Part shown: positions 2,316-58,717 of the stretch, in pieces
How the letters are laid out: the number at the start of each line of letters is the position of its first letter
Position numbering within the stretch: position 1 is the first letter of the stretch
NCBI GenBank assembly: GCA_022641835.1
Contig: CP048715.1
Span: 558,001 to 622,000, forward strand
Source: Petasospora fabianii
Lineage: Eukaryota; Ascomycota; Saccharomycetes; Phaffomycetales; Wickerhamomycetaceae
DNA length: 64,000 nt
Direction: 5' to 3'
Notes under the pieces: model-generated
The model's input: only the letters and a program-made list of their open reading frames with translations
What the model was told of the DNA's origin: nothing
The model's database searches: none
Program-made: the position numbers and the translations under genes

Positions 2316-3807
2316 TTATTTCTCCTTCTTCTCCGTCCCATTCTTAGTCTCCAAGCTTATGAATGCTTTCCACAACTTCCAAAGTAGATAGAAAGTAGCA
2401 ATGAGAACAACAGCAGCTGTCCATTTCTGGATGATTGGGAAATCCTCCTTATCACCAGTTGGAATGGTATACTCCAGTTTACCCTGTGATTTCTTCAAGT
2501 GGTAAAACACTGTTGATGGCTCAAAGAAAGATTCGTAACCTAGTCCATATGACTCGAAAGGGTTCCCATCAATTCTATCACGATCCTCTTTCTCCATGTA
2601 ATCATCAGCATCACAAGCCCAGAACACCTCTGGAGTTAAAAGATCAAACGTTGATGATGCTGATGGGATGATGTATCTAGAGTGTAACTTGAGTTCAATA
2701 TCAGATGAGGTGTTGGTAATATGGAAGAGTTGTGCAGAGCCGTATCTGGCCACTTTCCACTCTGGCGCTTCCAGATCGTCTTCACCCCATGCACTGAGAA
2801 GCGAGAGGCGGGAGGTGTCGTATTGGTACTTGTCAAAGAAGAGTGTGTTTGGAAGGTCGGAATACATGAAAAGCTCACATTCTGGAAACGGCGGTGATGG
2901 TGTTGTGGTTGTGTTGAGGCCCTTGATCAAGAGGGTTGGGTGAAGACCGATCGGTTGGTCGAAAGTGTAGTTAAGAGTAGTTTTGGTATCCACTTGATGT
3001 CGTGGCTTAACGATAAGAAGGGTCTTGGTTGGAGGAATGTATTCCTCTTCAGAGATGACTGTGCGGATTCCTGAGAGCTCAAGATCATCAATAGAGAGTT
3101 GATTGGCTTGGAAGAGCGCCACCTCTTTGCGAATGTTTGATTTGCGGATGTTGGCCTCGTATGGTTCTGTGACCCATTCAATGATGAGTCGTTGCTCATC
3201 AAACCTTATGTCAAATGATTGCACAAATGAGATCCTATCCAGACGATCAGCAATGTTGTTGAGGAAGATCTGGAAGACGGATGACTTAATTTGTGCTGAG
3301 CTGTGGAAGGAGGCGGATGTTGCGGTCGAAATCATGTTGGTGTTGTTGAAGTTGACACCAAACTGTTTGTTGATAAAGGCACCCATTTGATCACTGCATA
3401 ATGTTAGTACCTCACTGTTACACATGGATTGAAAACATAGTTTGACTTACAAGACAGGTTCATATTCCACAGTGCGGGGGATCAGATGGACGGAAAAGCC
3501 GTCGACTCCAAAGTCCTGGAAGGCAGAGTGGCGTGGTGCACCAATACAAGACCACTGGATACGGAACATGTAGAGTTTTGAGAACAATTCAGCCATCTGG
3601 AAGATCTGTAAGTATGATGAACTAAACAATAAGATGAGGGGAAATGTGACGCACCTCTGCCGGAAGCTCGTCGAGCTCCACAGTGAGCCTGTCCTGTCTT
3701 GCGCGGAACAAGGACCCGGGAAGCTTGATGTGATCCTCTGAGAAGACGGCATTATCGGTATCAATTGCCTCGAGGGATAGTAGCAGAAACGTGGTTCTCT
3801 GCTTCAT
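2316..3807 (-). CDS. PBN1: PBN1/PIG-X: essential subunit of GPI mannosyltransferase I (three exons)
   Basis: Type I ER membrane protein that with Gpi14 adds the first mannose to GPI precursors. Three exons are inferred: 3655-3807, 3451-3605 and 2316-3393, joined in frame to 461 codons (S. cerevisiae Pbn1 is 416 aa). The last exon carries the family landmarks: DQPIGLHPTLLI, then GEDDLEAPEW, RYIIPSASSTFDLLTPEVFW followed by ACD, and NPFESYGLGYESFF. One C-terminal membrane segment (WTAAVVLIATFYLLWKLW) is followed by a short Lys-rich cytosolic tail. Exons 1-2 supply the N-terminus, with FRIQW matching the TRITW region of yeast Pbn1. Intron 2 has perfect GTAAGT, TACTAAC and CAG signals; intron 1 lacks a clear branch site, so that junction is less certain. 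Confidence 0.88.
3394..3450 (-). other. PBN1 intron 2 (57 bp)
   Basis: Minus-strand GTAAGT donor at 3450, TACTAAC branch site at 3403-3409 and ATGCAG acceptor ending at 3394. Removal joins ...EYEPV-F-DQMGAF in frame; without it exon 2 meets a stop at the donor. Confidence 0.88.
3606..3654 (-). other. PBN1 intron 1 (49 bp), weak branch site
   Basis: Minus-strand GTGCGT donor and TTACAG acceptor. It joins ELPAE to IFQMAELF in phase 0 and is needed because the exon 1 frame stops soon after the donor. No TACTAAC is visible (only CATACTTAC by the acceptor), so the exact ends could be off. Confidence 0.6.
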
Positions 3808-22411: not shown

Positions 22412-25276
22412 TCATTTGAACTCCTCAATTACACCTACCGTCTTGGCATATGTTCCAACAGACTCATACACCACATCATTAAAGCCAAAGGCTGAAGGAC
22501 CACCCACTTCGAGACCTCTTTCAGACGTCCAGTGGTCAGATGGCGCAATGGCGATGACACAGACCACAAGACCATACTTGTAGTCTGGTGTACCAACAGC
22601 TTCACCAGTTTCTGAGTCCAACACACAGATCAAGTCAGGAACAGACGCAACAACTTTATCATCAACCTTGGCCACCAAATTCTCGTTTTGAAAGGGAATA
22701 CGCATGATTCCCTTATCCAAAGACTCGATAACCACTTCTCCAAAGACATAACCCTTCTGCAGTTTCTTCTCGACACCCACAATCTTTCCCTCGAACAAGA
22801 GTTTGGCAGACGTAGGCTTCACAGAGTCAATGATGTACTGTGCAACATTCGAGATATTAGAGTGTTGCTTTGCAATACTGACAGCCTTTCCAATTCTCCA
22901 AGCCAATGAGATACTATTCTTGATGGCCATTCCCTGAATATCATCAATTGCAGATACCAATCCAACAAACATACCTAGTTCTGAGAGAGCAGCTCTAATG
23001 AGACTCTCAGCTGCCTTGTTGGTCTTTGTTTTCTTGACAAGAACGTCGTTACCGTTTCCATCACTGAAGGCACATGGTGAATAACATGGGTCATCACTCA
23101 TGACACAAGGTGTAATTTGCCAAATCATAGGGTATGCTCTACCCATCAAGTCACAATCAATAACTTTTTTTCCAAGTTCCGCACCAAGAAGGAGACCTTG
23201 GAAACCATTACCACCACCAATTTCAAGGGATACAATCGTCTCAATATCACCAGGATTCAAGAGATTATAGGCAGTCTGCAGTTCAGCACCCTGAATTCGT
23301 TCACTAGCCACTGTAGGTGTTCCAACAAATCCCGCAAATATTGACTGGTTTGTGTCTTTGAGGTCTTGTGGATCAATGACGGTGATTTTAGTGCCCTGCC
23401 TTACCAGATTTCTGGCAATAAGGTACTGGGGATATGGATCACCTCCTCCACCGCACCCCAAGATGTATGTACCAACTCTTAGGAACTCCAGGTCGGTCTC
23501 GGAAAGCACCCATTGACGATTAACCACGGTCGGTTGGTAGGTCTCATAGTCAACCACGTCTTCACCGTCTTGACGACCCAAAGAATCCTTGGAGATAGAC
23601 CCGTCAACACCATCAGCCAAATTAGAAATGTCATCGTGTTCAATCGTTTCAAGCTTGCTGTAGTCCATATCAGCAACAACCTTCACTTCGTACTTGTGCA
23701 TGTTGACGTATGGCAGCTCCTCAGAGGTAATGTCAACAACAGTTATGGAGTCAGCCTTAGCTCCAAGCTTAATCGCTTTCTCTTCAGCTTCAGCTCTGAG
23801 CTTTTCAACGAGTTTTTCTTTCTCGTCGGCTTTGCCAAAGGCTTGTGCGGATGCACTGATCTTACCTATGGCAGCACCGATGGCATTGGCAACTTGGAAG
23901 AACTCGGGTCTCCACACCTTGGAAGCACCTTTAATATCATCCGGTAAAATAAAAGACCCACCACCAACAAGCAGAACAGGGATGTCATCCGGCGATGTCT
24001 TCATGCGATCGACAACTGCTTCAATCATCTCAGACACCTTGGCCCTGTATGCTGGGATCATGGCAGCTTCAACTTGACCACGAACTAGTTCCTTGTCACC
24101 AACAGCATAGATCGGCTTATCCATCCTCTTATCACCCTCAAGTTCCATAAAAACAGCAATATCGGAGGTGGTCAACGTCTTACCACCACCAACAATGGAC
24201 TTGCTGAAATCATTGCCTACCGAGTCTGGTCCAATTGTGACATCTTCACCATCAAACCTGACAATGGATCCACCACCTAGGCCGATGCTCTCAACTTGAG
24301 GCATAGCTAGCCGTGTCTTTACACCACCAATGAATGAGAACGCAGAAGTCTTTCTTGGATAACCATTATCAAGCAACAAGCCAACATCAGTTGTAGTACC
24401 ACCTACATCAACAACAATGACACTCTGCCCAGCTAAGTTCGCTCCCGAGCTGCCATTCACCAGGAAGGCAGCACCTCTCATGGAGTTAGTTGTACCACTT
24501 GAAAAGGTCTTGATCGGCGTACTAAGTGCTTCAGAGATCGTTAGAACCGTTCCATCATTCTGAGTGAGCAAAATTGGGGCATTGATACCCGTGGATTTTA
24601 CGGCATCTGAGAATGTTCGGATGATGTTGTTAGCAAACTTCTTGACGGATGCGTTCAAGATGGCAATGTTTTCACGTTCGAGAATTCCAATTCCACTCAA
24701 ACCATGTGATTTCACAATGATGGTACTTTCTGGGAGTTCTTCGGCGAGGATTGCAGCGACACGCTCTTCTTGATCTGGAAACACTGGCGAGAATACACCA
24801 GAGACTGCGACTGCAGTCATGCCTAATGACTTGATCTTCTTGGCTTCAGCCCTGACCTGCTGCTCGTCCACTGGTGCGATTTCATTTCCGTCCACATGGA
24901 CTCCTCCGGAGAGGAAACCCGTGTAACCCTCTAACAAGGTCTTGAGATCTGTAGGGAAGTTGGAGAATGGCGGGATAGTGTGCGAGTATGGGCCACAAAT
25001 TCTAAGAACTGCCACTTTTTCCAAGCGAGCACGGTCTCTTTCCACAATAGCATTGATGAAATGTGTTGTACCAATAGTCACCGAAAGAACATTTTTCTTG
25101 TCGTGGTCTGCTGATGAGAAGAGCTGTTCAATCGAGTCTTTAATGCCCTTGGAGACATTTGGTGAAGTCAGCTGCTTGTTCCAGCTGACAACCGACACAT
25201 TATCATTGGCAGGTTCCAAAAGGACAGAGTCGGTGTTGGTGCCACCAACATCAATTCCAATGAGATATTTCGGCAT
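22412..25276 (-). CDS. Hydantoinase/oxoprolinase A fused to DUF917 (S-Me-THD-like) protein
   Basis: A 954-aa fusion. Residues 1-190 are a Hydantoinase/oxoprolinase N-terminal region beginning LIGIDVGGTNTDSVLLEP, an actin-fold ATP-binding motif. Residues about 200-520 form the hydantoinase A core, with VVDVGGTTTDVGLLLDNG, ESIGLGGGSIVRFDG and LLVGGGSFILP. Residues about 590-954 are a DUF917 domain, with YILGCGGGGDPYPQYLIAR, EIGGGNGFQGLLLGAELG and DCDLMGRAYPMIWQITPC. Hydantoinase A enzymes open cyclic amides such as hydantoins or 5-oxoproline with ATP. DUF917 has been linked to S-methyl-thiohydantoin desulfurase. The real substrate is unknown. Such fusions occur in fungi, but S. cerevisiae has only the longer Oxp1. 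It lies beside a Zn2Cys6 regulator, with an NCS1 permease about 6.6 kb away. Confidence 0.85.
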   Translation of the reverse strand: MPKYLIGIDVGGTNTDSVLLEPANDNVSVVSWNKQLTSPNVSKGIKDSIEQLFSSADHDKKNVLSVTIGTTHFINAIVERDRARLEKVAVLRICGPYSHTIPPFSNFPTDLKTLLEGYTGFLSGGVHVDGNEIAPVDEQQVRAEAKKIKSLGMTAVAVSGVFSPVFPDQEERVAAILAEELPESTIIVKSHGLSGIGILERENIAILNASVKKFANNIIRTFSDAVKSTGINAPILLTQNDGTVLTISEALSTPIKTFSSGTTNSMRGAAFLVNGSSGANLAGQSVIVVDVGGTTTDVGLLLDNGYPRKTSAFSFIGGVKTRLAMPQVESIGLGGGSIVRFDGEDVTIGPDSVGNDFSKSIVGGGKTLTTSDIAVFMELEGDKRMDKPIYAVGDKELVRGQVEAAMIPAYRAKVSEMIEAVVDRMKTSPDDIPVLLVGGGSFILPDDIKGASKVWRPEFFQVANAIGAAIGKISASAQAFGKADEKEKLVEKLRAEAEEKAIKLGAKADSITVVDITSEELPYVNMHKYEVKVVADMDYSKLETIEHDDISNLADGVDGSISKDSLGRQDGEDVVDYETYQPTVVNRQWVLSETDLEFLRVGTYILGCGGGGDPYPQYLIARNLVRQGTKITVIDPQDLKDTNQSIFAGFVGTPTVASERIQGAELQTAYNLLNPGDIETIVSLEIGGGNGFQGLLLGAELGKKVIDCDLMGRAYPMIWQITPCVMSDDPCYSPCAFSDGNGNDVLVKKTKTNKAAESLIRAALSELGMFVGLVSAIDDIQGMAIKNSISLAWRIGKAVSIAKQHSNISNVAQYIIDSVKPTSAKLLFEGKIVGVEKKLQKGYVFGEVVIESLDKGIMRIPFQNENLVAKVDDKVVASVPDLICVLDSETGEAVGTPDYKYGLVVCVIAIAPSDHWTSERGLEVGGPSAFGFNDVVYESVGTYAKTVGVIEEFK

Positions 25277-25526
25277 TCTTTGGATCTTTCAGAGACAAGG
25301 AATCATAGGGCGAGAAAAAGGTCAAGAAGGGTGCCTTTTAATCTGGCGTTCGCGGAGAATACCACATTCGGACAGTGTGCCGCATGCTGGACTTCAGAGC
25401 GTCATACCCCGGACTGCAGAGAGACATTGACAGCTGCATGGCTCGTCCTAGAGGTCTACGGGTCTTGGTTTGATACTAAACAACATCATTATTAACTCTA
25501 TGGGTGAATGTAAATATATAAAGAAC
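25277..25526. other. Short intergenic upstream of the hydantoinase fusion
   Basis: A 250-bp gap between tandem minus-strand genes: promoter of the hydantoinase fusion and terminator of the Zn2Cys6 gene. GTGTGCCGC at about 25376 and CCCCGGAC at about 25408 bring some CCG/CGG triplets, but no paired site was clear. Confidence 0.4.
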
Positions 25527-40911: not shown

Positions 40912-41949
40912 TCAATTAAGAATTTTCTTGAGAAAGGTCTGGTTATCCGGGGTCGAAGGCTTCGTCTCTGAATTCCGAGACTTAGAAGAAAGATGCTCCT
41001 GAGCTTCTCTCTGCATGCTATCGATGACTGGGTCAACAAAGTGATCGGTTTTACGTTTCTTTGGACGGACAAGAGCCTCACTCTCGTCTCCGTTTTCATT
41101 TTCGGTGCCAGAGGGGTTAGGAGGTGGGGTGGGCGATGGTTTTTCTGGATCGTGGTTGAGGTGTGTGTATGTTAGCTTCAGTTTCTGTGTTGACCAATTG
41201 TATGTGACATGGATCTGGGATTTGCAGTCAACAGTCTTCTTACTGTTTTTCTTTCTCATGCCTGTAGATACTGACGGCCGTATCAAAGCCTTGTCCTCCG
41301 AGCAGTAAAGCGTCATGTATAGTGATCTCCCCGAGGTGCTGAGTCTGTAGACACACCATCTATATCCAACATCATCGCCAAGTTTGGCAGCGATGTTATC
41401 CCTCAAGAGCTTCTTGGCCTCGGTAATCACTTGGTTGGTGAGCTGTAAGTCCTTTTCACTCTCGGCTATAGTCAGAGATGGCATGTTAGCGGCCGTAACC
41501 TCCAGCTGGGCCGTCACAAGCTCACCATTGTGAACGGAACTTTTCCTCAGGTACTTGAACAATTTGTCTAATGAAGTGTATGTTTTGTCGGATTCTCGTC
41601 TGCGCTTGACCAGCTCCTCGAAGGCCGTCTCTGGAGTCTCCTCGACCTCAAGTGTGCCATCATTGGCCTTCCTGAGCTTCTCACGCCTACTGCGCATGTA
41701 TTTGTTCTTTGCCTCTCGGCAGGGGTGGCACATGGCTGCAAATCGACCAGATGAGAGAAATCTTGTGTACATTGTTATTGGGTGCATCTTGAAGCACTCG
41801 GAGCATCGTTTCTCCTCGTTCGGGTCTGTAGGTGGGAGGGCCTTTGATGGCTTGGACTGTTTGGGTGGCATAGGCGATTTGGGTGACTTCGGTGAATTTG
41901 ACGCTGTTGAAAGGTCCTCTGAGACGAGAGTGACGCTTGACGGTACCAT
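40912..41949 (-). CDS. Putative zinc-binding, DNA-binding-like protein of unknown function
   Basis: A 345-aa basic protein I cannot assign to a named gene. After a Ser/Pro/Lys linker, a C4 cluster spans about residues 49-78 (RCSECFKMHPITMYTRF to MCHPCREAKN, CX2C-X23-CX2C), followed by a very basic helix (KYMRSRREKLRK). The middle (about 200-275) has WCVYRLSTSGRSLYMTLYC, then VDCKSQIHVTYNWS and LTYTHLNHDP. The order Cys, Cys, HxxH over about 60 residues resembles WRKY-GCM1-type fingers (FAR1, FLYWCH, fungal Rbf1-like), a weak match made by eye. The C-terminus holds a nuclear-signal-like PKKRK. A nuclear regulator is likely; its targets are unknown. Convergent with the LAM gene (84 bp) and divergent from the PPIL4-like gene. 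Confidence 0.75.
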   Translation of the reverse strand: MVPSSVTLVSEDLSTASNSPKSPKSPMPPKQSKPSKALPPTDPNEEKRCSECFKMHPITMYTRFLSSGRFAAMCHPCREAKNKYMRSRREKLRKANDGTLEVEETPETAFEELVKRRRESDKTYTSLDKLFKYLRKSSVHNGELVTAQLEVTAANMPSLTIAESEKDLQLTNQVITEAKKLLRDNIAAKLGDDVGYRWCVYRLSTSGRSLYMTLYCSEDKALIRPSVSTGMRKKNSKKTVDCKSQIHVTYNWSTQKLKLTYTHLNHDPEKPSPTPPPNPSGTENENGDESEALVRPKKRKTDHFVDPVIDSMQREAQEHLSSKSRNSETKPSTPDNQTFLKKILN

Positions 41950-42146
41950 TTTCTAGATCTCCTCTAGGGAAGATTGTGCTAGAGTTGGGGTGGGGCGTTG
42001 TTGATTGTTTGATCGCAAAAAAAAATCGGCGACGGATATGGAACATGGGCGAAGGCGTGGTGGTAAATTTTGCCCCGTTGCGATTTAGCATTGAAACCAC
42101 CAACTCAGCAGGAGTAATCAGTATCAGTGGCTAAACAGAGCTGGAT

Positions 42147-43595
42147 ATGAGTGTTGTTTTACAGACTTCGAAAGGTGAGCTTATTGCTGCTCTCCTCATT
42201 GATCTCGTGAGATACTAACAACGGACAGGGAACATCGTCATCGACCTTCATACCGAAGAGGCGCCGACGGCGTGCAACAACTTTCTCAAACTGTGCAAGG
42301 CCAAGTACTACACATATGCACCATTCCACGACATCCAGCGTGGCTACACCGTGGAGTTCGGTGACCCAGAATGGCCATTGAGCAAAACTGGACGACACGT
42401 ATGGAACCTGGCAGACCCATCATCAGTTAAAGGTCTCAAAGTGGAGAGAAATAAGCTTCAGGGAAACAATAAGGGATCTGTTGGCTTTCTCACACAGAAA
42501 GACGCAACGGGACTAGAGTCATACATCACTTCCCTCATTACCATCACCACGGGAGATATCGACGAAAGGCGAGGAACACCTCAATGTGTTGTCTTTGGAC
42601 AAGTCGTTGATGGCCTCGATGTCCTTGACACGATCAACACTGCCATTGTCGACGAGACTAATAGACCCTACCAGGACATCAGAATCCACCACACGTACGT
42701 GCTCGAAGATCCTTTTGCCGAGGTGCCGGGTCTCGTTATCCCACCCTCTACACCAGAACCAACAGACCTACAACTCTCCACTGTGCGTCTTGATGATCTC
42801 ACGGGAATCAACATTGATGAGGACCAAAGCCCACTAACTGAAGAGCAAATCAAACTCAATCAACAGCGTGATGCAGAATCTAAGGCTCTTACATTAGAAC
42901 TTATTGGTGATCTACCATCTGCAGAAGTGAAACCAATGGAGAACGTTCTCTTCGTATGTAAATTGAACCCAGTGACGCAGGATGAGGATCTCGAGACCAT
43001 TTTCTCGAGATTTGGAAAAATCATATCGTGTGAAATCGCCAGGGATAAGGATACCAAGGAGTCGATGCAATATGCATTCATAGAATTCGAGGAAAAAAGA
43101 AGTTGTGAGAATGCTTATTTTAAGATGGATGGTGTGTTGATTGATGATCGCAGAATCCATGTGGACTTCAGTCAGAGTGTGTCCAAGTTGGCGGATGCAT
43201 GGAGGAATGGTACCAATGAAAAGAGAAGAGAGGTCCATGGAGGATTAAGTAAGAGTGTGAGAGAGGACCGAAGACCTTCAGACAGAAAAAGCTCAGGCCA
43301 AGACAGATACAGAGATCGAGGTTCGGACCGTTACAGAAGCTCGAGTGGGAGATCTCGTGATAATGACAGATACAGAGATCATCGCTCATCAAGTAACCGA
43401 GACCACCACAGAGATCACTATGGCTCATCAAGACACAAACATGATTCAAGTCACAGATCTAGATCTGATAGAGAAGACAGAGATAGAGACACATCGGACC
43501 GAGACAGAAGTCACAGATCATCTGCACACAGAGGCTCACATCACAGCCGACACAGGGACCATTCACCAAGCAGCAGATCAAGAGCATACTATTAA
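42147..43595 (+). CDS. PPIL4/Rct1-type cyclophilin-RRM protein with RS/RD tail (two exons)
   Basis: Exons 42147-42174 and 42229-43595 join to 464 aa. A cyclophilin-like domain (residues 1-165) begins MSVVLQTSKGNIVIDLHTEE. An RRM spans about 245-326, with RNP2 NVLFVCKL and RNP1-like MQYAFIEF. The tail is almost pure RD/RS/DH repeats, as in splicing factors. S. pombe Rct1 (Cyp6) and metazoan PPIL4 share this layout; Rct1 binds the Pol II CTD and affects transcription, splicing and heterochromatin. The cyclophilin active-site FHRI is FHDIQ here, so prolyl isomerase activity is probably lost. S. cerevisiae has no such gene. The short first exon is required for MSVVLQTSKG. Confidence 0.9.
42175..42228 (+). 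other. Intron of the PPIL4-like gene (54 bp)
   Basis: GTGAGC donor, TACTAAC at 42213-42219 and GGACAG acceptor. It joins exon 1 (10 codons, the last split as G|GG) to NIVIDLHTEE in frame. Confidence 0.92.
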
Positions 43596-45437: not shown

Positions 45438-46853
45438 TTATTTACCAGACACCTGTTTGATCATAAAGTCCTTCAGGAAACCGAGCTGATTGATAGCGTT
45501 GAGACCAAAGGATCTGAGAGCCACAACTGGTTCAGCAGTAAGGGAGTAGAGCTTATGTAATTTGTCAACGACACCAAGGAGCATGTTGTTAACAGGGTAT
45601 CTATCAGCCCAATATGGCTCCAAAACCAATGGGTTACCCAGGTCCAAACCTCTCTCAAGACCCCTCTCCAAGTGGTGAACAAGAGACTGGACATCACCTT
45701 GACCCATATTCAATCCCTGACCGGCAAGCGGATGTGTCGTGTGAGCAGCATCACCAACGAGGGCGATTCTCTCTTCAACATAGGTGTCAGCGTGAGACAA
45801 TCTCAGAGGGAAACGTGCTCTAGAGCCTGTCTCGATGCCAACAACACGCACTGGGAACTTCTCATCAAGTTCATCCTCGGTGTACTTCTGAGTCGCATGC
45901 TCTATTCTCCAGTCCAGGTCTTCCAAGAGACCCTCGGTTTCACCAGCAAGAATCTTCTTATGGTAGTAAGACATATCAACATCTTCAAGCAGGAATGCAG
46001 CATTGACGAGCTTCACAAACAACTCTTCATCAATCTTGGTCAAGACATCGGAGAGTGGGACAGTAGTAGACCACACCATAGTTGCGCGATCCTCTGGCAT
46101 AGGAAGCATAGCAATTGGACCAGTTGGCAAGAATCTTTGATATGCTGTTCTCTGGAATGGCGGGTACTCCAATTTAAGTGTAGCAACGACACCAAAACGC
46201 TGGTAGAACCAACCACGGGATTCGATTCCGGCAAACTTACGCACTGGGGAGTTGAAGCCGTCAGCTCCGACAAGTAGACGTGTCTTGATTTGTTCACCGT
46301 TAGAAAGGTGCACGATTGGCCACTTGGAGATGGGACATTTGGTGATTTGGGTGACCTTTGTGTTGTCTATGATGTCGAGGCCAAAATCTTCCTTTGCCTC
46401 GGACTTGAGCTCTTCGATACGTTGGTATAACGAGGACTGAATGTTGACGTTCTCACACATAGTAGCAATCTCTGGATGGTCAAATCCGAGACGGGCATCA
46501 CTGAGACCCTCAGTGATGATCATGGAGTCGTATGGCTGGATTCTTTCTTGCTTGATCCATTTCCAAGCGCCAATGTGTTGGAGATAATCGACTGTCTGCG
46601 GTGTCAGCGATACCACACGATTAGTAAGGATCTCAGGTGTATTTTGATGGAAGTCTCTAACTGCTTGGAGGTTGAATCCCTCAATGAGCGAAACCTTGAG
46701 GTCTCTGGTGACCCTGGAGTTCTTCAATGCCGCCGAGAGCGTGAGGCCGGCAGGACCACCTCCGACGATGAGCACGTCTACCACCTTAGGCTCTGCCGCC
46801 TTGATCGCTGTCTCAGCAACGGTGGCCAGCGAACGTCTGAATAGAAGAGACAT
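45438..46853 (-). CDS. COQ6: Ubiquinone biosynthesis monooxygenase Coq6
   Basis: A 471-aa flavoprotein monooxygenase of the mitochondrial matrix side that hydroxylates the C5 position in coenzyme Q synthesis, in the CoQ synthome. A presequence (MSLLFRRSLATVAETAIKAA) precedes the FAD GxGxxG motif (LIVGGGPAGLTLSAAL), the DG motif (LVGADGFNSPVRK) and the GD motif (ALVGDAAHTTHPLAGQGLNM). Length agrees with S. cerevisiae (479 aa). It is divergent from RAD50 with 213 bp between starts. Confidence 0.97.
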   Translation of the reverse strand: MSLLFRRSLATVAETAIKAAEPKVVDVLIVGGGPAGLTLSAALKNSRVTRDLKVSLIEGFNLQAVRDFHQNTPEILTNRVVSLTPQTVDYLQHIGAWKWIKQERIQPYDSMIITEGLSDARLGFDHPEIATMCENVNIQSSLYQRIEELKSEAKEDFGLDIIDNTKVTQITKCPISKWPIVHLSNGEQIKTRLLVGADGFNSPVRKFAGIESRGWFYQRFGVVATLKLEYPPFQRTAYQRFLPTGPIAMLPMPEDRATMVWSTTVPLSDVLTKIDEELFVKLVNAAFLLEDVDMSYYHKKILAGETEGLLEDLDWRIEHATQKYTEDELDEKFPVRVVGIETGSRARFPLRLSHADTYVEERIALVGDAAHTTHPLAGQGLNMGQGDVQSLVHHLERGLERGLDLGNPLVLEPYWADRYPVNNMLLGVVDKLHKLYSLTAEPVVALRSFGLNAINQLGFLKDFMIKQVSGK

Positions 46854-47066
46854 TGGGGCAGCGTGGGTTTCAGAGCTAGACGATAGCAGAGCAAGAGAGA
46901 CGTGGAGTTGGTGGTGCCATACAAAATGTCAGGGCAGAGGACAGGGCGTGCTCGAACTCGTCTGATTCGCGGGTTATACGCACAGACAAGCTCTTCTTCG
47001 CTTTGTAGGAGCAGCGTGTGGCGTCTGTGGGGAAGCGGTGTCTTCACTACAGACTCATTTACCGAG

Positions 47067-50000
47067 ATGTATGTACTACTTCCTTATTACCTGTTCAGAT
47101 AGGCAAATACTAACATTCAATCAGGTCGGCAATTTACAAGGTATGCTCACAGTGACAACGTCATCAACGCCATCGATGATACTAACTCTAACGCAGCTCT
47201 CAATATCCGGTGTTAGATCATTTGACGCCCGCCAGGCAGAGACCATTGAGTTTGGTAAGCCTTTAACCCTGATTGTTGGGCCCAATGGTACTGGTAAGAC
47301 TGTGAGTTATGAACCCATTCGCGTATCTTTATATCTGTAACTAACACTTCCTGGACAGACTATTATTGAGTGCCTGAAGTATGCCACGACAGGTGATCTA
47401 CCACCCAACTCCAAGGGTGGTGCCTTTGTGCATGATCCAGGGATGTACGGTGAGAAGGAGGTGAAGGCTGAAGTCAAATTAGCTTTCCAAAGCATGTCTG
47501 GTAACTCGATGGTCTGTACCAGAAATATGCAGGTCATCTCCAAGAAGGGTGCGGCAAACAACACATTCAAGACGCTAGAAGGTCAGCTTCTCCAAATGAA
47601 CAGAGGAGAGAGAAGTACGATAAGTACTAAATGTGCAGAACTTGATGACCTTGTACCGAAGAATCTTGGTACACCGCGCCCCATCTTAGAGTACGTTGTG
47701 TTCTGTCATCAAGAAGACTCACTATGGCCACTTTCTGAGCCGTCCATTTTAAAGAAGAGATTTGATGAGATCTTCGAGGCATTGAAGTTCACGAAGGCAT
47801 TGGACACTCTTAAGGTTATCCGAAGGGATATGAGCACTGAAATTAAACTTTTGAATCAGGCTGTGACGCATCTCAAGCAGGACAAGGACCGTGCTCAGCG
47901 TACGAGGGAGAGACTCGAGAAAAACAGGGATGTCATTGAAAGATACCTCCAGGAAACTACCGTATTAGAAAATGAGATCAAGGAAGTTACAAGAGAAAGT
48001 GATGTCCTTTTCAAGTCGAACCAGGAATTCCAAGAAGTCCTCTCGAAGCTGGATAGCATGAGACACGAGGAGAGATCAGTCTCCGAGCAGATCACCAGAC
48101 TCACGTCTTCCTGCACACTACTAGCCGATGATGACAAGGACCTCCAGTACAGACTTGCAAACTTCCAAAGGCTAATGAATGAATCTTCAGATCGCGTAAC
48201 TGAACTCAAGACTGCACTGCATACTCACGAGGAGGAACTGAGAGAGGTCAGAAAGAACGAAGGCGTTTTGATCAGAGAAGAAGGTCAACTGAGATCTAAG
48301 GCCGATGATTATGAAACTAATCTTGTCACGAGAGATTCACTCCTTGAGAAGCTGGAAGAGTTTGTTTCCGTCTCTTTTGACTTTGAGGCGGTCCAAGCCG
48401 AGCTGCAATCGTTCCTCAAGTCACACCAATCCAAGCTTGAGGCGAAGGCGGACGAGATTGAAAAGCAACATCAACTCGCCCAGAAAGAGATTCAAGATAT
48501 CAGCGACTCAAGAATCAAAGAGCTTCAGCACAAGCAATACGCCACATCTGATATTGGGAGCTTGGATACTGAAAACAAGGACATCCAAAACAGAATCGAC
48601 AACATTAATTTCAACGAGGGAAACCTGGAGTATGAGAAACAGTCACTGGAAGCTATCGAGGAAAAACTCAAGGCTATGAAGAAGAATCGTGGTACTGACT
48701 CAATGTCCCAAGAGATAAGAGCCAAGAACAACGAGATAATGACATTGGAGAACGAGCTCGAGGCTGTGGCGCACGATATCACGCAGACTCACAAGCACTC
48801 TGATGTTCATGCTAAAATTTCCTTATTGTCAGATGAGCTCAAGTTCAAAGAGAAGGCAAAGGGCAAACTTATTGAGACACATCGCGAGACTTTCCAAAAC
48901 TTTGGGTTTGATACGTCGAACTTGCTAGCTGATTACAACAAGAATGTACAAGATTTGAAGTCGGATCTCGATGCTAAGGAGAAGGCCCTTCAGCTAGGTG
49001 AAAAGGAAGTTTCCAGGCTTCTAAACTCCATCGGCTACCGTGAGAGTAGTGTCAAGAAACAGGAGGCCACCATTAAGGATGCCACAGACGCTGTCATGAA
49101 GTGCCTTGAAGAAGGTGACGACGTTGATGACTACGTTGAACTTGTTTCATCCGCTGAAGATGATTATAAGACCGCTCTCGAGAACTTGAAAATGCATACT
49201 ACGACACTGCAGTTCAACAAGAAGGCATTAGAGGTTGCAGAGAACACCCATTGCTGCTACTTGTGCTCCAGAGAGTTCGAGAGTAACCCGGGCTTGGAGA
49301 GTTTCATTGTTGAGCTCAAGAAGAAGACTGACGACCAGCTCGACACCCAGTTGAGAACTCAGCTAGAAGAAGCCAAAAATTACTTACAGGAACTGCGGTC
49401 TGTGTCAGCCGATGTTGAGAATATCCACTCCGCCAAGAAGCAGATACAAGAGATCAAGGAGGCTATTGAGATGGACAGCATGGAGCTCGAAGAGGCCAAG
49501 GGCTCAGCTAAGGCTCTTGAAGATGAGGTTGCCACATTGAAGGACAAGGTTTCTAAGTTGGACTCGCTGAGAAACACTATTAACGATATTATGAGACTTG
49601 ACGAGGACTTGCAGACGGTTAAGAAGCAGCTCGATCAGAAGCAGCAAGAGCTCAGCGCTTACGGATTTTCCTCCAAGGGCCTCGATGAGCTACAGGCTGA
49701 TTCTGCTGAGAGGACAGAAAACTTGAAGAAGCTTCGTAAGGCTGTGAGTTCTCTACAGGAGAATAAGGAGAGCGTTCAAAGGGAGCTGACCATGCTCGAA
49801 GGTAATGTTAAAGACAAAAGACTCTTGATCAGCAACATGGAGAGAGCAGTCATTGAGAAGGAGAACCTGGCAAGATCCATTGACCAGAACAAAAAGAAAA
49901 TCTCTGACCTCAAGAAGTCTGTTGCGAAGGCGGATTCTCTCATTGCCGAACTTGATAAATCTATTGCTGAAAAGCAAAATGCATTCAACGAGGCTAAGGC

Positions 50001-51296: not shown

Positions 51297-52082
51297 TCAC
51301 TGCTTGATTTCTGGGCGACGAGAGCTTTCATCTCGCTCCGAAGCTCTATTATCTCGATGGCTGTGATGGTAGCCATCACGACGATGATCATCAGTTCTGG
51401 ATGAGGTATGCCTCGATCTGGAATAATCATCATCTCTGTCTCTGTACCTGTCACGATCACTAGAACTTCTGTGCGATCTATCTCTGTCAAAGTCTCTATG
51501 TCTCTGGGAGGAGCTGTAGTGGTGCCTGTCATGATCACTGCTGGAGCGTTTGCTATGATGCGAGCGGTGTCTGTCCCTTCTATCTCTATCCTTCGAACTG
51601 TCATCTTGTAACCTCTTCTCCCGTAGTTCCTGCATTTTAGCCAGCTGCTGTTGTTTGATCTTCAATATCGGGTCATCTTTCATTTTGATCATTTCATCCC
51701 TTTGACTCAACAAGCTGCCTCCCTCAAGCTTCTCAAATCCATGCTTCTTTTCTGGAACTTTAGCCTTTACAATGAGGTCATCAACACGCTTATTACCGAG
51801 CAAGTACTCTTCAGAGTCATTGGGGGCAACAGCTTCATCATTACCAGCAGCACCAGCGGACTCATACATCCAGTCAACACGGTCTTTAACCTTCTTTCCA
51901 GTCTGCTTAAATTGTAGATCTCGGAGCTCCTTCAGCTCACGCTCCTTTCTGATCTCTTCTTGACGTTCTTGGATCTTCTTACGCTCCGAGAGCGCCTCCT
52001 GCTCCATCTCCCAAACCTTTTTACGGTTCTTCATGAGACCTGGATGCCAGGACTTCTTGAGGTTGAGATCTCCTGGTGCCAT
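51297..52082 (-). CDS. CWC25: Splicing factor Cwc25
   Basis: A 261-aa spliceosomal protein needed for the first transesterification, joining after Prp2 acts (S. cerevisiae Cwc25 is 179 aa). The N-terminal CIR_N-type region is clear: LNLKKSWHPGLMKNRKKVWE, then a charged helix. NKRVDDLIVKAK is a further conserved patch. Residues about 165-261 are RD/RS/DRH repeats, longer than in S. cerevisiae and fitting a yeast with more introns. It is convergent with RAD50 (179 bp between stops). Confidence 0.93.
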   Translation of the reverse strand: MAPGDLNLKKSWHPGLMKNRKKVWEMEQEALSERKKIQERQEEIRKERELKELRDLQFKQTGKKVKDRVDWMYESAGAAGNDEAVAPNDSEEYLLGNKRVDDLIVKAKVPEKKHGFEKLEGGSLLSQRDEMIKMKDDPILKIKQQQLAKMQELREKRLQDDSSKDRDRRDRHRSHHSKRSSSDHDRHHYSSSQRHRDFDRDRSHRSSSDRDRYRDRDDDYSRSRHTSSRTDDHRRDGYHHSHRDNRASERDESSRRPEIKQ

Positions 52083-52674
52083 TTTGTAGTGTTTAGATTA
52101 TTTGAAGGTGTGTATCAGCCAGGGCTATACTGAGAAATGTTGCAATTAGGTTGTTTGCCTAATGCTAAGGAAATGATTAAGAGAGCTCATCGGATTCCAT
52201 CAAAATTTCGCGCATCACAGGGCGGAGTGTGAGGACGATAAGGATATGATGGGAGTCGGCCAATGGTAAGGGTTTGCGGAGAAATCAAAGAAAACTACGA
52301 TATCATGCCATTGAGTTTATATATTTGTACAAGTTGAGGTATCTACATCAACTACTGAGAGCAATGTTCCGGCTAAGTTCGGTTTAGTCAATGCTAACCG
52401 GTTCTTGATGGCGGTGAGGGAAAACCGCCATAGAAAACACTGATTATCGTCAGTATTTCTACAAAGGAGCGGATCTGCAGTGTCATATCGATAACCAGGA
52501 CATTGACATGTCAGAATGAGCTCCAAGCAGCCACGGCAGAGTAGGGGATATGTGAGTGCACATACATTAAGTGAAGGTAGATAAAGACTGGAGCCTTTCA
52601 GGGTCGCCCGTATCACCATTCCTGAGGTGGAACTGGAATGACTCCTGATCAGCAGAGAAGAAACAACAGACAGT
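52083..52674. other. Intergenic CWC25 / SUI1
   Basis: About 590 bp between tandem minus-strand genes. A minus-strand frame of about 100 codons (52317-52619) has no recognisable features and is left uncalled. Confidence 0.45.
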
Positions 52675-53504: not shown

Positions 53505-55550
53505 ATGAGCTCAAACGTGCTGGCACTGTTCTCTTCAACATTAGATGAGATAAAGGGTGTCAAGACCGGTATTTCGGGCTCTCGTATCAAGAAGCTCACA
53601 CAGATCGCTCTGGATAACGTTAACGTAAGTTTTTAATAACCCCATCAATCCCCTGTTCTCGTGATCTTGCACATCCGAGTCCCCCGACTGCTGGCACCGG
53701 CCCAGTCACTTTTAACTACATGATAGACCATCTGCACCATAGTGACTGCTGATGTTATTACTGGTAGTCGTTATCAAGTTAGATGCTATTCGACTTCTCC
53801 ACACTCCTCAAGCGAGTGGTGGCGGAGCTGGAATATGCTTGCACCCACCTGAACAGAAGAATGTCCTCTTAGTTGGTAACATTAATATTAACACTAGATC
53901 TAGATCTCTTCGCAAATCGTCGACAAGTGCTACCAAAACATCAAAGATGTTCCGGCTTCACACAAGCTTGGTGCTCTTTATGTGATTGACTCTATTGCTC
54001 GTCGCTACCAAGACTCCGCTGCTGCTAATGGTCAGGCTGTAAATGCCTCTGCCCCAGAGGGAACCTATGCCCATGCTCTCTATAAGTTTGATAGCGTGAT
54101 TGAGGACTGTCTTCGTATCACTTTTGATTATGCTCCTGAGGAGCACAAAGATAAGGCTAATAAGTTAGTTGATATCTGGCGTAAGGCTGGTACTTTTACA
54201 GAGTCTAAACTTACTAGCGCTGTGAACAACTACAGTGGCTCTACAACACCACCTTCTGCTCCACCTTCTACCAACTCTACTCAAGCTTCATCTCAGTATG
54301 CTGCGCCAGCTCAGGTCAACGCTAATGATCTCCTTAAGAATCTTGCAGCCCTTGGTGCTGCTTCTGCGGGCCCTGCTCCTGTCTCTGCTCCAGCAGGTCA
54401 ACCTACTAGCGGTTTCCCACCGGTTGCCCCACCACCGGCTGCTAACTCTGCCCCAGCTATTCGAGGACTCGCTGACCCACAGCAAGCTATTGCTCAGTTG
54501 TTGTCTCAGATGCAGAGCACCGGTCAGCTGCCTCCTTTCCCAACTCAGGGCGCTCCTTCCCAGTCACCTCCACATCAACATGAGCAGCATCAGCAACAAG
54601 TTGGTGGCCGCTCGCGTTTCGGTGACACAGCCTTGTCTCAGGAGGAGGCATTTCGCCGTGCTGGTGGTGAAGGTGGTAGAGAAAGAGAACGCGGCGGTAA
54701 TGCGTACTCTCGTCGTCAGCGTTCTCGTTCACCACGTCGCCAACGTGACCTTCCACCTCCGGGCCACGTTATTGGAGAGAAGAATCTCCCAGGAACCGCT
54801 CACTACAGAGAGCGTAATGTCCAACTGGATCCTAATCTCCCTTACAACTCTATTAAAGTTCTTAGTCGTACCATGTTTGTTGGTGGTATTCCAGGCTACA
54901 TGAGCCAAGATGATGTCAAGGCTGTTCTCAGACCATATGCTGAGGTTCAGAGTGTCATCTTGAACCCAGAGCGTAAGCATGCCTTCGTGAAGGCCTACTC
55001 TCGCCGCGAAGCCGAAGCCGTTTTGCAAAACTACAATAAGATTACTTCTGTGAACCTTCGTGTCCGTTGGGGTGTTGGTTTCGGTCCTCGTGACTGTTGT
55101 GATTACCAGCATGGTATGTCCATTATCCCAATCGACAGACTCACTGAGGCCGACAAGCGCTGGGTCCACAGTGCTGAATGGGGTGGTATCGGCTTTGAGC
55201 GTGAGTTAGTTCCAAACCTCGTGATGGAGGAACCGGATATTGAGATTGGTGAAGGTGTTTCTTCCAAGGCCATCTCCAAAAAGATGCCAACTGATGGTTC
55301 GAGAAACGGTCCTCGTTCTTCCAAGCCAGGTGAGGCTCCACCTCCAGAAGTTGCTCCTTCTGAGATGCCTGCCTTCATGCGTAACAACATGGGTGCCACT
55401 CAGCTTGCCAACTTGTTTAACAACGGTGGTGGTGTTCCTCCTGCCCCTCCAGCTGCCGCTGCTGCTCCTTCTGGTGGTGCTGCACCAGCTACTGATTCTG
55501 CTGCTCAGCTTGCTAGTCTTATGGCCATGCTTCAGAACCAGCAGAAATAA
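53505..55550 (+). CDS. NRD1: NRD1/Seb1 RNA-binding transcription-termination factor (two exons)
   Basis: Pol II CTD-binding and RNA-binding subunit of the Nrd1-Nab3-Sen1 type complex that ends short non-coding transcripts. Exons 53505-53624 and 53904-55550 join to 588 aa (575 in S. cerevisiae). The CTD-interaction domain (about residues 5-150) includes GISGSRIKKLTQIALDNVN across the junction to ISSQIVD, then ASHKLGALYVIDSIARRYQ. An Ala/Pro/Gln linker follows, then RRQRSRSPRRQR (about 310), and the RRM at about 362-426 (TMFVGGIPGYMSQDDV onward). The Nrd1-specific extension GFGPRDCCDYQHG and LTEADKRWVHSAEWGG is present. The tail is Pro/Ala-rich with QNQQK at the end. Confidence 0.95.
53625..53903 (+). 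other. NRD1 intron (279 bp, about five times the local norm)
   Basis: GTAAGT donor at 53625-53630, branch-like TATTAAC at 53887-53893 and ATCTAG acceptor ending 53903. The join VN-ISSQIVDKCYQNIKDV gives a gapless match in spacing to yeast Nrd1 (23 residues from the junction to SHKLG). Another AG lies six bases upstream (CACTAG), which would add two codons (ATC TAG) and a stop, so the downstream one is used. Confidence 0.88.
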
Positions 55551-58343: not shown

Positions 58344-58717
58344 TAGGATTACACCAGTGCATGTCGATACTACGAGTAAATAAAGAACTGATCAATAACA
58401 AGCCGAGACAACGTATTAAGATGTCTCACATAACACAATTGAGTACAAATATATGGGTCGTTAAAAAGTTTTTAGCAGTAGCAACCCCCTCTTCGAAACA
58501 CCTTGCATACTTGAGAAATTTAAAACAGGCAAACAAAGCAGCAAAAAAGGAGAGACATAAGCCTTAAAAAGGTAATCTGAAAATAAGAGACAAAAATATG
58601 AGAGGAAATAAAGAGATCAGAAGAAAATTGGGGTCATAAGTAGATAGTCATTACATGCATCCACTCCTTCTCACCATTCACCTTCAACACTCCAACGCAT
58701 GAGCCAGAGGAGTAAGC
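58344..58717. other. Convergent 3' region FOL1 / GIS2
   Basis: About 370 bp between stops, AT-rich with A-rich runs near 58540-58620. A 75-codon plus-strand frame begins just after FOL1 and looks like chance. Confidence 0.45.

Follow-up and report, generated by a model that had tools for sequence, protein, structure and literature searches.

The locus described here is the 5' end of a RAD50 gene, which lies on the forward strand of the window, that is, of the whole 64-kb stretch of DNA that was analysed. The window has a G+C content of 46.5% and carries yeast-type genes and introns. When 20 of its long open frames were scanned against Pfam, 18 had a family at E <= 0.001, a count that includes the frame at 40915-41952, whose only match falls below the curated cut-off. 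The gene names given to the ferrochelatase, FOL1-like and THI20-like proteins were supported by their best solved chains (1l8x, 2bmb and 3rm5). No Rfam family was found in the window at gathering thresholds, and ARAGORN found no tRNA in it. The coding part of RAD50 opens with three short introns, of which the first splits the start codon itself and the third is an addition to the two that had been noted in the original prediction. The coordinates of the gene model, and of the other features discussed below, are collected in the following table.

Table. Features of the RAD50 5' region and introns read in other genes of the window (positions are those of the window)
Feature	Positions	Strand	Details
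RAD50 exon 1, 3' end, AT of the start codon	47067-47068	+	Joined to G47125 gives ATG, MSAIYKLSI
RAD50 intron 1, 56 nt, phase 2 in codon 1	47069-47124	+	GTATGT...TACTAAC...ATCAG
RAD50 exon 2, 16 nt, last base of the start codon (G) and SAIYK	47125-47140	+	GTCGGCAATTTACAAG
RAD50 intron 2, 56 nt, phase 0	47141-47196	+	GTATGC...TACTAAC...CGCAG
RAD50 exon 3, 105 nt, LSISGVRSFD to GPNGTGKT	47197-47301	+	Splice join and structure alignment
RAD50 intron 3, 57 nt, phase 0	47302-47358	+	GTGAGT...AACTAAC...ACAG; directly after GTGKT of the nucleotide-binding loop
RAD50 exon 4, rest of the gene including the stop codon	47359-51117	+	First part within the structure alignment
In-frame ATG with 47 open codons, candidate N-terminal extension	46926-47066	+	Open-frame reading; codon score low
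Cyclophilin-RRM gene	42147-43595		Pfam; intron 42175-42228, 54 nt, after 28 coding bases
NRD1-like gene	53505-55550		Intron 53625-53903, 279 nt, 120 bases in; acceptor 53927 also keeps the frame
PBN1-like gene, two introns	3394-3450; 3606-3654		57 nt and 49 nt; continuous frame

The structure of the gene, its splice signals and its reading frames can be read directly. A genomic ATG is present at 47067-47069, and a donor, a branch site and an acceptor, all of the type used by the host, delimit an intron that falls within codon 1. In these respects the original prediction was borne out: the AT of the start codon is separated from its G by a 56-nt intron, a 16-bp exon follows between two introns of 56 nt, and both of these introns are clean, with GTATGT and GTATGC donors, a TACTAAC in each and AG acceptors. 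Removal of the first intron does open the RAD50 frame, as had been claimed, and the complete join encodes 1293 amino acids without an internal stop, with the N-terminus MSAIYKLSISGVRSFD.

The identity of this product is supported at its N-terminus. When its first 340 residues were compared with solved structures, Rad50 chain 9bi4_C and the product aligned over residues 1-329 and 1-330 with an E-value of 8e-122; the chain begins MSAIYKLSIQGIRSFD, and the first nine residues of the product are identical to it. The N-terminus and the Walker A region are thus collinear with known Rad50 over residues 1-330, and Protein Data Bank structures of Rad50 align to MSAIYK from residue 1. The structure search covered residues 1-340 only; the full translation also holds DEPTTNLD, which we take to be the Walker B type sequence of the C-terminal ATPase half, and CYLC, presumably the CxxC of the zinc hook. 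Residues 31 and 47, both encoded by CTG, stand opposite leucine in 9bi4_C, and residues 272 and 328, also encoded by CTG, opposite valine and isoleucine, a pattern that agrees with a predicted reading of CTG as leucine in this host. Searches with the first 197 residues gave seven pattern matches in viral contigs and 49 in bacterial and archaeal contigs, with no relatives in either set, as expected for a yeast gene.

How far the splice signals could have arisen by chance, and how many other splice routes lead to the same N-terminus, can both be stated in numbers. The pattern GTATGT-N25..50-TACTAAC-N3..20-AG has a single match on both strands of the 64-kb window, at 47069, and the full-consensus pattern of intron 1 appeared in 0 of 100 shuffles. 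All routes with zero to two introns of 35-330 nt were then enumerated, allowing any GT and any AG, starting at 46853 and always ending on the acceptor at 47196. Exon 3 is reached in frame by 625 routes, of which seven end in SAIYK, and three intron pairs give exactly MSAIYK. The earlier statement that the split start codon offers the only route to this N-terminus is therefore too strong, since three GT-AG intron pairs arrive there; what stands is that GTATGT at 47069 is the sole consensus donor among them, and the AT/G route through it is the best of the three. That the 5' gene model is wrong, with another donor or start in use, draws on the two additional pairs that also yield MSAIYK, but we consider it extremely unlikely, as their donors (GTCAGG at 46928 and GTACTA at 47073) are both poor compared with GTATGT.

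The interval from the divergent COQ6 start (minus strand, 46853) to 47067 contains a single further ATG, at 46926, which would provide a different start. If this were the true start, always or in some transcripts, intron 1 would split an internal codon and Rad50 would carry a basic extension of 47 residues, perhaps serving in mitochondrial targeting. The ATG is in frame and is followed by 47 open codons; simulating the upstream stretch with a first-order Markov model gave a chance of 0.020 for any such opening. The predicted peptide contains seven arginines, no lysine, one aspartate and one glutamate, and is rich in arginine and serine with few acidic residues; mitochondrial leaders are rich in arginine and serine and poor in acidic residues. 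In addition, AAA directly precedes the upstream ATG, as it does at 3 of 20 other starts in the window, several of which are merely the first Met of their frame. The AUG at 47067 is preceded by GAG, and since G is common at position -3 (7 of the 20 starts, with A at 9) its context is unremarkable. These 20 starts were taken from 21 frames, minus those of the PBN1-like gene, the SUI1-like gene and the frame at 58687 (first Met unusable), plus the starts of the cyclophilin and NRD1-like genes.

Codon use in the stretch stands against an upstream start. Its codon score is lower than that of every one of 200 coding segments matched in length. It was also compared with 416 other open stretches led by an ATG, a set whose members overlap and may contain genes that went unrecognised; 365 of them equal or exceed it. 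The result is similar when amino acid content is removed and synonymous choice only is scored: the stretch falls below each of 203 coding segments, and 337 of 416 other stretches equal or exceed it. The alignments of solved Rad50 chains begin at residue 1 with MSAIYK. Since only 72 bp separate 46926 from the divergent COQ6 start codon, the stretch is probably promoter, and we regard 46926-47066 as probably non-coding promoter or leader sequence and a start at 46926 as unlikely. Highly improbable, in our view, is a combination of two in-frame starts, in which 46926 would give a basic leader form with 47 additional residues, perhaps mitochondrial, and 47067 a nuclear form, with the splicing of intron 1 gating both.

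Because introns begin with GU, an AT/G split always keeps an AUG in the unspliced RNA. The AUG is thus present both before and after splicing, and splicing does not create the RAD50 start codon; rather, splicing of intron 1 swaps the reading frame behind the AUG at 47067. Unspliced RNA translated from this ATG reads MYVLLPYYLFR and then stops, precisely the peptide originally described. Retention of intron 2 gives MSAIYKVCSQ followed by a stop, retention of intron 3 brings a stop inside the intron, and skipping of exon 2 leaves a junction with no AUG, so that the next AUG opens 11 residues only (MVLVRLLLLSA). All four mis-spliced forms that were tested thus meet an early stop and are null. Loss of the product upon retention is therefore a property common to all three RAD50 introns, and these null forms fit constitutive splicing with decay of the errors, a pattern that is usual in yeast. 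In Yarrowia, up to 93% of introns by one account (PMC2911113) and 82.0% of introns in open reading frames by another (PMC13309789) bring a premature stop.

Taken together, these observations favour, with a probability that we put at roughly 85%, an ordinary RAD50 gene of a yeast, whose 5' end carries three short introns that are spliced constitutively; the first of these happens to lie between bases 2 and 3 of the start codon. From the structure of the gene we infer the splicing itself, its constancy, the use of the AUG at 47067 and the decay of unspliced RNA. The spliceosome would pair donor and acceptor across each short intron, and for this reason the split codon and the 16-nt exon should be irrelevant to it. 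The ribosome would scan the spliced RNA to the AUG at the junction of exons 1 and 2 and would proceed to make Rad50, while unspliced or exon-skipped RNA would meet an early stop and would probably be destroyed by nonsense-mediated decay. Such an ordinary reading is supported by the presence of introns of the same sort in three other genes of the window. In a non-exhaustive reading, seven introns were found in these genes and RAD50 together; six are of 49-57 nt, and the first intron of RAD50 is the earliest among those read.

It had also been proposed that intron 1 might act as an on/off switch for this DNA-repair ATPase. Such a switch would require intron 1 to be held back and then released by DNA damage or meiosis, with splicing setting the output of Rad50. 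Retention of intron 1 leaves only a peptide of 11 residues, so regulation would be effective if it were present. Regulated meiotic splicing is known in yeast, at AMA1, HFM1, REC107 and SPO22, the named targets of Mer1 (PMC8567612). In H. polymorpha and P. pastoris, alternative splicing mostly takes the form of intron retention (PMC3866509); 94 retained-intron events are known from H. polymorpha, where 457 intron-containing genes make up 8.5% of all genes. In Yarrowia, alternative splicing affects 33.6% of intron-containing genes (PMC13309789). As retention is a common kind of alternative splicing in yeasts, constant splicing of RAD50 is not assured.

The features of intron 1 nevertheless argue against regulation. 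The AUG pre-exists splicing, and the loss of product upon retention is shared by all three introns and usual in yeast. Both the donor and the branch site of intron 1 are full consensus. No fold stronger than that of shuffled sequence was found in 47000-47140 (z 0.78), in intron 1 (z 0.52) or in intron 2 (z 0.12), and the folding of both introns is ordinary. The Mer1 enhancer motif is AYACCCTY, and introns of the Mer1 type have a weak or non-consensus donor. An exact motif is absent from introns 1, 2 and 3 of RAD50, whose best matches reach 6, 6 and 5 of the 8 positions, and the donor of intron 1 is GTATGT, neither weak nor non-consensus. RAD50 does resemble the Mer1-dependent meiotic introns of Saccharomyces cerevisiae in that the intron interrupts a recombination gene and must be spliced for the product to be made, but RAD50 is not among the four targets named in PMC8567612. 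In Yarrowia, introns in the start codon region show high splicing efficiency, and the genes that carry them show low variability (PMC13309789). The sequence gave no hint of a special on/off switch in RAD50; that part of the original prediction is not supported, and regulation of this kind appears very unlikely. If splicing of RAD50 were regulated after all, the dosage of Rad50 would gain a new control point.

With constitutive splicing as the preferred reading, intron 1 looks like an ordinary member of an already described kind, in its AT/G form. In Yarrowia, 47 genes have a first coding exon of one base, A/TG (PMC2911113), and the donors of 42 introns come straight after one of the three start-codon bases, A, T or G (PMC13309789). 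The A/TG genes of Yarrowia lipolytica share with RAD50 a spliceosomal intron inside the start codon, a crowding of introns at the 5' end and retained introns that mostly lead to premature stops (PMC2911113). The A/TG split, however, removes that AUG from the unspliced RNA, whereas the AT/G split in RAD50 never does so, and Yarrowia introns are longer, with a median of 196 nt (PMC13309789) compared to 56-57 nt in RAD50. Across eukaryotes, start-codon introns share with RAD50 their position at codon 1, but the common class is phase 0, directly after the ATG, while intron 1 of RAD50 is phase 2; introns that disrupt the start codon, those of phases 1 and 2 at position 1, are relatively rare (PMC1626468). 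No start-codon intron in RAD50 was found among titles and abstract openings, in a literature that excludes most subscription journals. Start codon terms were not found in the text of PMC4202332, and PMC4022394 provides background on intron numbers. The arrangement at RAD50 is a clear trap for automatic annotation, which could easily misplace the start: the genomic ATG is real, the genomic sequence behind it reads in the wrong frame, and a coding piece of only 16 nt comes next.

Several other features of the window may be mentioned. The 279-nt intron of the NRD1-like gene is far longer than the others read, and no TACTAAC lies near its acceptor. Converging on RAD50 from the minus strand, at 51297-52097, is a gene for a CWC25-type splicing factor (Pfam CWC25 and Cir_N), a proximity that is probably coincidence. 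Finally, a frame of 958 residues on the minus strand, at 22412-25288, combines hydantoinase/oxoprolinase domains with an S-Me-THD-like domain pair.
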